From: Antennarius striatus
Lineage: Eukaryota > Chordata > Actinopteri > Lophiiformes > Antennariidae
DNA length: 64,000 nt
Direction of reading: 5' to 3'
NCBI RefSeq assembly: GCF_040054535.1
Contig: NC_090781.1
Coordinates: 17,522,482-17,586,481, forward strand
Numbering within the stretch: the first letter of the stretch is position 1; the number at the start of each line of letters is the position of its first letter. Position numbers and translations under genes: made by a program. A model generated the notes under the pieces. The model saw only the letters and a program-made list of their open reading frames with translations. It made no database searches and was not told the origin of the DNA. Shown here one piece after another: positions 57,201 to 60,256 of the stretch.

Positions 57201-60200
57201 ACATTTTTGTAAGAAGCAGAAACTTAATCTCCATCCTGCCTGAGTAACTTTTAGTTACTTCTTGGCACTGGAATCCTCTGACGTATTTGTTAGCATGGCG
57301 TTTAAAACGACACAGCAGTAAATTGGTTTTTCCTCTTCTTTCCTAAACATGCGGTGTGTTTCAGTGTCACTGCCCGTGGTGGAGCTCGGATGTGGCCTCG
57401 GCGTGACTCTGCTCCTCATGCTGCTCCTCTTCATCATTTACCACGTCTTCTGGCTGGAGCTCCTGCTGCTCTATCGCTCCTGGTTTGGCACCGACGAGCA
57501 GCAAACAGGTGAGGAGCAGCTCCTTTAATTTCACAATTTCACACCAAAGAAAGTCCCTTGATCGTACCACAGTGAATCTGTGACTCTGTGGGTGTTATCT
57601 GATTTATATGACTGAAAACAGGAAGTCATTGTGTGTGTGTGTGTGTGTGTGTGTGTGTGTGTGTGTGTGTGTGTGTGTGTGTGTGTGTGTGTGTGTGTTC
57701 AGACGATAAGACGTATGATGTCTACATCTCGTACGCGAGGAACAGCGAGGAGGAGCAATTTGTTCTGTCGACGCTGCGCAGCGTTCTGGAGAACGAGTTT
57801 GGTTACTCAGTGTGTATCTACGACAGAGACAGCCTACCAGGAGGGAGTGAGTACAGGGTGTAGTACTACAGAAACCAAAACAAAATCCATCCATCCATCC
57901 ATCCATCCATCCATCCATCCATCCATCCATCCATCCATCCATCCATCCATCCATCCATCCATCCATCCATCCATCCATCCATCCATCCATCCATCCATCC
58001 ATCCATCCATTCATTCATTCATTCATTCATTCATTCATCCATCCATCCATCCATCCATCCATCCATTAACCCTCCTCTCTCCCTGCAGCCATTACAGATG
58101 AGACTTTGAGTTTTGTGGCTCGTAGCCGGCGCCTCCTGGTGGTCATTAGCCCGGGCTACGCCTGTCAGGGCTCCCAGACCCTCCTGGAGCTGAAGGCTGG
58201 CATCGACAACATGGCACTAGGCGGGCACCTGCGGGTGATCCTCATCCAGTACAAGCCAATCAGGAGGCAGGGCTGGGTCAAAGAGCTGAGGAGGGCCCAG
58301 GTGGCCCTGGCAGTGGTCCGGTGGCAGGGGGACAAGTCCAAGGAGCTGACGTCCCACTTCTGGAAGAGGCTGCAGGTGGAGTTACCTATGAGGAGGGTAG
58401 GCGGTAGTGAGGGGGATACTAGCAGTAAGAACATACCCCTGTTGAGGCTGCAAAGTCACATCAGCACCACCTCCCAAGACCTGCAGAAGGTGGGGTTTAG
58501 TCCTGACGGAACTAAAGTCTTTAACACTCTTTCACCACAGAAAGTTGGATAGATGGATGGTTATGGAGAGAAAACTCATCGTCAGCTCCAGAGATGAAGA
58601 GTGACGGAACAATTAGAGAAAGATCTTGTGACTGTAACAAATTCAGTATTAAATGTCCGTTCATTGTCAGCATCAGCATCCATCACATTTCACCTGCATC
58701 ACCAGTGGGTACTTGAGCCCCCTCCAGATAAAGAGGACTGTGGTGCTTTTAAGGAGATACAAAAGTCTGAACGTCTGTTATAAAAAAATCAGAGCATCAT
58801 CTGCGTAGAAGGATCCACAGTCACAGACTTAAATTGTTACTAGGAGCAATGAGCAGCGAGAAGCATTTTAGTTATTGGTTTAAGATACAGCTTCTCACTT
58901 TCAAGCGTCATTGATCTTTTTAAAGGGTCCTTGTTTTCACGTTTGTAGAAATGAGAACTTTGCTGAATTTCTTTGTGTTTTAAAATCTTTAAGAAAAAAG
59001 TTTGTTAAAAAAGTTTGCTTTGTTATATGTTGATTCAGCAGTTTTCATCTGTTGTATAAAGTACATCATCTCACTGTCATTCATTTACATGTTTTCCGCA
59101 TTTTCCATTTGCATAAATAATCATGAGTGCAATAAGAAATATTTCTGATATTTCCGTCGGTGAGTATTTTCCAGTTTATTTTACATTTTGAATTTTGTCT
59201 CATTTTAAAGTGTTTCATCTTTTCTCAGATATAATATTATTTTAAACGATCCAAAAATTTTTTTTCTCAGAATCTGAATATAACAGTGCGGCTTTGCAGA
59301 AACTTTTTATTCCGATGACGTGAGTTTAATGAACACGTCCAAATACGAAATATGTTCTGATTGGCTGATTTATGTTGAACAGCAAACACCCAGCCCATGA
59401 GTCTGGCTTCTGAAAACAGGGGTTTCCTCCTGAAGATTTAATGATCTGTATTGACTTCACAGTCTCTTCCTCTTTGATAGACCTATCAGAGGCTATACTT
59501 AAGTTGATGAGGCAGAGTCGTCGCATCCTCTTCATCCTCAGCCCTAACTTCCTGGTGGAAAAGAGCTTCTGCCTCCTGGAGTGTCGCCTGGGGCTCTACC
59601 TCCAACAGGGCCACCAGGCTGTGATTGTCACCATTATTTACCGCTCCATCAGCCAACTGTCCTGCGTGGAGGTCATTCAGCTCCGTCAGGTCGCTGCTGC
59701 CACCACTGTGACATGGCGAGGGAGCCGATCCGAACCACACGGGTCCCGCTTCTGGCAGAGGCTGAGGCTGGCTCTGCCTGTCCGGCCGCTGGCGATGGGC
59801 AGGAGGTTGATCGATAGCACATCGTCCCACTCAGACCTGGCCGCCATGGCGCTGCAAAGAACAGAGCTGGTCCAAAAAAGGAGTAAAAGAGTTGGAGCCA
59901 ATCAAATCCACAGAAAGAGACAGGGTTCAACCAGTAACATCTGCAGAGAGCAACAAATTCCACCCAGAGGGAGTAGCAAATTAAAAAGAGGGAGTGGATA
60001 TAAGGGGAAGGGGTCACAGCACAAAAGAAGCTGCTCAGGATGCTTCACTGGTCACGTGATGGGCGGGGCAGGGCGAACTCTACAAACAGAGATCATGCAG
60101 GAGTCCATTAACAGAAGAGACGCCCGCCATGAAGCAGACCCTGCCCAGAATCTCTGCTCCACCCACGTACGACCCAACCCTGTTCACATACCTGACTCCG

Positions 60201-60256
60201 CCCTCCCCACATCCCAGCAGATGCATACGATTAGTTCAACAACTGAGGAAAACTGA
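51256..60256 (+). CDS. il1rap: IL1RAP, interleukin-1 receptor accessory protein (long b-type form)
   Basis: IL1RAP is the shared co-receptor for IL-1, IL-33 and IL-36 receptors, a type I membrane protein with three Ig domains and a cytoplasmic TIR domain. Exons: 51256-51257, 52510-52595, 53621-53816, 54066-54149, 55185-55410, 55564-55732, 55819-55890, 56503-56629, 56773-56921, 57365-57508, 57703-57846, then 59481-60256 (b form, about 724 aa) or 58089-58552 (about 620 aa). All phases agree. A signal peptide starts [16 protein letters not shown]. Ig segments include [41 protein letters not shown] and WWTVDGKK. The TM segment is about residues 376-400 ([19 protein letters not shown]). TIR box 1 is YDVYISYA and box 2 is [18 protein letters not shown] after the TM and [20 protein letters not shown] identify IL1RAP over IL1RAPL1/2. 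The start codon split is inferred. Confidence 0.93.
51804..51855. repeat. (ATC)n microsatellite in IL1RAP intron 1
   Basis: About 50 bp of pure ATC repeats. Confidence 0.96.
53067..53351. repeat. (TG)n and (CA)n arrays facing each other
   Basis: (TG)n of 99 bp (53067-53165) and (CA)n of about 73 bp (53279-53351) are separated by 113 bp in the IL1RAP intron before the first Ig exon. They are complementary, so the pre-mRNA could fold into a long stem. Confidence 0.96.
57631..57697. repeat. (GT)n abutting the TIR exon acceptor of IL1RAP
   Basis: About 67 bp of GT ends five bases before the AG (57701-57702) of exon 57703-57846. The usual polypyrimidine tract is thus almost wholly replaced by UG repeats, with only TTC next to the AG. 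Confidence 0.96.
57885..58066. repeat. (ATCC)n / (ATTC)n array in the intron before IL1RAP terminal exon a
   Basis: Nearly the entire 242-bp intron (57847-58088) is a tetranucleotide repeat: ATCC, then ATTC (about 58009-58037), then ATCC again. A normal pyrimidine tract, CCTCCTCTCTCCCTGCAG, follows. Confidence 0.96.
58089..58552 (+). CDS. il1rap: IL1RAP terminal exon a (canonical TIR second half)
   Basis: Joined in phase 1 (A|CC) to exon 57703-57846. It starts [20 protein letters not shown] and carries the box-3 FW in [12 protein letters not shown]. This matches the conventional human IL1RAP exon (IVTDETLSF, LLVVLSP, FWKQLQVAMP), which recruits MyD88. After the TIR there is a tail of about 55 residues, longer than in human. 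ATTAAA at 58648-58653 is the nearest poly(A)-like hexamer. Confidence 0.93.
59481..60256 (+). CDS. il1rap: IL1RAP terminal exon b (IL-1RAcPb-type TIR second half plus long tail)
   Basis: After a good acceptor (CTTCCTCTTTGATAG) the exon joins in the same phase 1 (A|AC) to give [20 protein letters not shown]. It contains [19 protein letters not shown], box-3 [14 protein letters not shown] and a [13 protein letters not shown] segment. These align in order with the human brain isoform IL-1RAcPb (GGNTVEAVF.., KFWKALRLALP, SSQSDISLDHVQRR). About 150 residues of basic, Ser-rich tail follow, including a Cys cluster (RSCSGCF) in the position of the human CRCC cluster. In mammals the b form is neuronal and does not recruit MyD88 normally. 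The reading frame is open to 60256. Confidence 0.9.

Follow-up and report, generated by a model that had tools for sequence, protein, structure and literature searches.

Two alternative last exons in a fish IL1RAP gene, one of them very probably the counterpart of mammalian IL-1RAcPb

The gene described here is the orthologue of IL1RAP in the fish Antennarius striatus and has two alternative last exons, 12a and 12b, within a window of 64,000 nucleotides (the whole stretch of DNA that was analysed, G000:C6:17522482-17586481). Sequence comparisons make it very probable that 12a is the canonical exon and 12b the counterpart of the exon of mammalian IL-1RAcPb, the two having arisen by duplication inside IL1RAP before the fish-tetrapod split.

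The coding span of IL1RAP runs from 51256 to 60256, and the frame is open through either last exon. The features of the gene and of its surroundings are as follows.

41316-42392, + strand: pair of FGF-gene exons, of which the second is nearest to FGF12, a conserved neighbour of IL1RAP (sequence matches)
51256-51257, + strand: end of exon 1, apparently carrying the opening two bases of a start codon split by an intron, with the donor GTGAGT next to it
52510-52595, + strand: IL1RAP coding exon 2, signal-peptide region (in-frame gene model)
53621-53816, + strand: IL1RAP coding exon, ectodomain (gene model, ectodomain match)
54066-54149, + strand: IL1RAP coding exon, ectodomain (gene model, ectodomain match)
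55185-55410, + strand: IL1RAP coding exon, ectodomain (gene model, ectodomain match)
55564-55732, + strand: IL1RAP coding exon, ectodomain (gene model, ectodomain match)
55819-55890, + strand: IL1RAP coding exon, ectodomain (gene model, ectodomain match)
56503-56629, + strand: IL1RAP coding exon, ectodomain (gene model, ectodomain match)
56773-56921, + strand: IL1RAP coding exon, ectodomain (gene model, ectodomain match)
57365-57508, + strand: exon 10, transmembrane segment (hydrophobic stretch in the translation)
57703-57846, + strand: exon 11, the N-half of the TIR domain common to both isoforms, with a phase-1 end after LPGG (gene model, TIR match)
58089-58552, + strand: exon 12a, TIR C-half of the canonical type followed by the C-terminus, stop TAG (gene model, TIR match, tree)
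58648-58653, + strand: ATTAAA, first candidate poly(A) signal past exon 12a (motif only)
59481-60256, + strand: exon 12b, stop TGA (gene model, structure matches, trees, open-frame test)
59483-59785, + strand: IL-1RAcPb-type TIR C-half, within exon 12b
59786-60253, + strand: 156-residue tail, within exon 12b
60644-60660, + strand: two AATAAA candidate poly(A) signals past exon 12b, at 60644 and 60655 (motif only)

As the original prediction had it, each last exon completes one TIR domain in frame, the acceptors before 58089 and 59481 both restoring the frame left at 57846, where exon 11 is followed by the donor GTGAGT (57847). The acceptor CAG at 58086-58088 leads into 12a with the junction codon A/CC (Thr), and TAG at 59478-59480 leads into 12b with A/AC (Asn). 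Isoform a (11 coding exons and 12a) has 620 residues and ends at TAG 58552, isoform b (the same 11 and 12b) has 724 and ends at TGA 60256, and neither has an internal stop; the start codon appears to be split over an intron (51256-51257/52510). The pyrimidine content is 0.85 for the acceptor of 12a, 0.75 for that of 12b and 0.55 to 0.80 for the nine other acceptors. As motifs, the ATTAAA after 12a and the AATAAA pair after 12b fit two alternative last exons. Of the motifs that mark neural splicing, UGC is present within 300 bases upstream of 12b only at -194 and -186, and the sole GCATG from 57847 to 60700 is at 60579. An Rfam search of 51000-64000 gave no match.

Some further observations concern the surrounding sequence. 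Simple repeats of TG (57630-57699) and CATC (57887-58066) flank exon 11 and sit in the intron ahead of 12a, and changes in their length could affect splicing. Read-through past exon 9 would add a few in-frame, acidic residues before a stop (56922-56963), which could make a soluble form, though a stop soon turns up in any intron. On the minus strand, 62983-63815 holds two long open frames that by eye resemble pieces of a retroelement reverse transcriptase.

The shared 466-residue part has its best match in IL1RAP (4dep_C, 157.2 bits; best IL1RAPL1 match, 89.0), and the Ig and TIR domains of Pfam were matched in the IL1RAP products. The second FGF exon scored 120.3 and 118.7 bits against FHF1/FGF12 versus 99.7 against FGF13; linkage of IL1RAP and FGF12 is known in zebrafish, human and mouse according to passages of PMC9643328, where a putative zebrafish il1rap is already named. 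It is because of the ectodomain match and the FGF12 neighbour that we assign the shared part to IL1RAP.

The TIR family PF01582 (cut-off 21.3 bits) matched isoform a with 88.9 and isoform b with 76.6 bits, and by part the N-half with 33.4, exon a alone with 44.3 and exon b alone with 31.0. The best solved relative of the TIR domain with exon b was 7fcc ('Isoform 4 of Interleukin-1 receptor accessory protein', IL-1RAcPb) at 156.7 bits, ahead of IL18RAP (89.5) and IL1RAPL2 (83.4), and exon b alone gave the same order (62.7, 44.9 and 40.6), which bears out the proposed IL-1RAcPb type of this exon. Exon a alone scored 61.8 bits with IL1RAPL2, 55.1 with 7fcc and 34.0 with IL18RAP, there being no solved chain named canonical IL1RAP TIR among its seven matches; its predicted likeness to the canonical co-receptor is seen in 57/102 columns (56%) that agree with a provisional row for the human canonical C-half. 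Exon b is identical to 7fcc in 36/99 (36%), so between fish and human the conservation of 12b is lower than that of 12a; this, and the 55.1 bits of exon a with 7fcc beside the 62.7 of exon b, count against the proposed reading. The two fish exons are identical to each other in 30/100 columns of an 11-row alignment and in 32/100 of a later one, near the 35% given for mammalian exons 12 and 12b in a passage of PMC3705552, and we count this likeness of values in favour of the proposed reading.

Exon b might instead be a decaying duplicate of exon a, unused or dying though still open, a reading that could draw on the low identity to AcPb and on a tail codon score near neutral (0.009 in the true frame, 0.078 in a different one). 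We consider it very unlikely. The frame of 257 codons stayed open in 0/5000 dinucleotide shuffles and is thus not due to chance, the acceptor is intact and phase-matched, exon b alone passes the TIR cut-off, and it has residues in common with AcPb only. The tail of 156 codons by itself stayed open in 13/5000 shuffles, and the case for its being coding is that open frame, since codon usage fails to favour the true one there; in the TIR part of b, the true frame is the best of six (0.234 per codon). Decay is also opposed by the substitution tests, in which exon b had no significant fish-side excess with five outgroups (p 0.15 to 1.0); exon a likewise gave no significant result with three outgroups. 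Faster evolution of b in fish, as might be read from a branch of 1.64 against 0.35 to 0.57 for AcPb, was rejected since these substitution counts were not significant. The fold of exon b, predicted from an alignment of b and a alone, came out with low confidence (mean pLDDT 37.4, pTM 0.17).

Trees of the C-halves drew on 106 columns, and the program gave a warning of long branches; they joined fish b and 7fcc with support of 97/96 (11 rows), 96/96 (9 rows, two long rows being left out) and 98/95 (10 rows, including the provisional human canonical row). The prediction that the choice between two TIR halves is old is therefore upheld, fish b clustering with AcPb in three of three trees. A separate exon duplication in the fish line, with convergence behind the likeness of b and AcPb, is less likely still: the few columns and long branches would favour it, as would the clustering of a and b in two of the three trees, but b joins AcPb and not fish a in every one of them. 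In addition, 8 residues and 3 gap columns are common to fish b and 7fcc alone among the 11 rows, including the junction Asn, which follows LPGG in 7fcc as well; one of the shared gaps adjoins an IL18RAP gap and may be due to aligner placement. The sequences suggest less firmly that exons a and b group within IL1RAP, to the exclusion of IL1RAPL and IL18RAP: two trees give this grouping 86/92 and 94/91, and the 11-row tree lacks it. The exon duplication within IL1RAP most likely predates the parting of fish and tetrapods, because the clade of fish b and AcPb is supported and the grouping of a and b inside IL1RAP is so too, though less firmly.

The least likely of the three alternatives is that exon b is the C-half of another IL-1R gene (IL18RAP type) or is older than IL1RAP. 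IL18RAP is second-best for b, while for a it falls below IL1RAPL and AcPb; yet with b it scores far below AcPb and it stands apart from b in all three trees, and an IL18RAP-type half older than IL1RAP, an idea raised by the exon-b scores, was dropped as unsupported by the trees. Had exon b belonged to another IL-1R gene with upstream exons of its own, the original prediction would have fallen, but of the 15 matches to the TIR N-half in the genome, exon 11 itself is the sole one on this contig, and the remaining 14 are 33 to 62% identical. Among the matches listed (8 and 5), IL1RAP alone has two tandem C-half exons, with at least one family member missed there; such whole-genome scans score the best candidates only and absences from them are weak, the C-half of L038 having been missed twice and found later.

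Other members of the family lie elsewhere in the genome. L037 and L038 (G000:C1:20788000-20806000) are neighbouring IL-1R-type genes, and for the TIR C-half of each the best solved match is IL18RAP (33.3 versus 25.6 bits and, narrowly, 43.2 versus 40.5 for IL1RAPL2), with weak tree support of 45/57; for zebrafish, passages of PMC9643328 report no obvious IL18RAP. Two IL1RAPL1-type copies, L044 and L045, lie on C24 and C12, one of them 96/102 identical to the 1t3g row, and part of a review gives IL1RAPL1 as absent in fish (PMC9020223). The TIR C-half of the IL1RAPL2-like L043 (C10) is split across three exons; it is a single exon in 12a, 12b and both IL1RAPL1-type copies. A gene on C4 carries SRSRRLIV and FWKELALAMP, near the motifs described for teleost DIGIRR in a passage of PMC7144542; with the two IL1RAPL1-type copies, this gene points to a fish as the source of the sequence.

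Past its TIR half, exon b has the long, basic and Ser-rich tail that had been foreseen (156 residues, 19 Ser, net charge +12), and all comparisons of it use a provisional human AcPb tail. The local score of the whole tail against this human tail was reached by 545/2000 shuffles (gaps 11/1) and 59/2000 (6/0.5), that of its first 40 residues by 56/2000, and the part past residue 40 was not above chance (1061/2000 and 286/2000 with the same two gap settings); as controls, the exon a tail gave 1245 and 899/2000 and an IL1RAPL1 tail 1632 and 1154/2000. Anchored at LALPxR, 8/25 residues are identical to the provisional human row, as reached by 58/100000 shuffles for identity and 13/100000 for score, in a stretch that was picked after looking and whose score an unrelated window pair equals when unanchored. 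The proposed in-order match to the mammalian isoform thus stands for the ALPxR and SSxSD segments (the 8/25) and is not supported for the Cys cluster, which was not above chance. The fish tail seems to resemble the provisional human one only over its first 25 residues or so. Given that tail function is stated as unknown in mammals in part of PMC3705552, this lack of conservation is informative. Should both junctions be used, setting fish beside mammals would tell apart what has been conserved, namely the alternative TIR half plus about 25 residues, and the free rest of the tail. There is an even chance, in our view, that the switch between canonical and brain-type tails is ancestral to bony vertebrates, the alternative TIR half being kept and the tail behind it being free to diverge.

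If exon 11 is spliced to 12a, the canonical co-receptor would result; if 12a is skipped and exon 11 joined to 12b, the product would keep the ectodomain, membrane segment and TIR N-half, and would have another TIR C-half and the long basic tail. We infer that both junctions are used in fish. By analogy with mammals, neurons would be expected to favour the b form, and fish b may join the ligand-receptor complex without recruitment of MyD88 and IRAK4. With both junctions in use, the gene would offer a natural co-receptor switch for studying IL-1 signalling in the fish brain. Among the papers listed by full-text literature searches there was no report of a fish AcPb, and automatic annotation may already hold the isoform. 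Fish exon b is a divergent member of the known IL-1RAcPb kind.

Among known systems, the closest is mammalian IL-1RAcPb (IL1RAP isoform 4, mIL-1RAcP687; exon 12b), with which the fish form has in common the gene, the Asn junction after LPGG, 12b as last exon (as in mouse, according to part of PMC12688222), clustering TIR C-halves and a long C-terminal tail. It differs in a TIR half identical in only 36/99 and in a tail of 156 residues against about 140 (a value from PMC3705552), alike only in the first 25 or so to the provisional human tail. In passages of PMC3705552, mammalian AcPb is confined to the CNS and forms a ligand-dependent complex without recruiting MyD88 and IRAK4, and according to PMC3573345 it raises the calcium influx induced by NMDA, acting via Src. 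The introduction of PMC12688222 states that IL-1 signalling is activated by both membrane forms, and accounts of the sign of b signalling thus differ. IL1RAPL1, IL1RAPL2 and IL18RAP have TIR C-halves of the same family, but b scores lower with them and they sit elsewhere in the trees. Canonical IL-1RAcP (exon 12) is matched by fish 12a in 57/102 columns of the provisional human row; unlike it, fish exon a continues for about 50 residues past the TIR domain, the human C-terminus being the shorter of the two.
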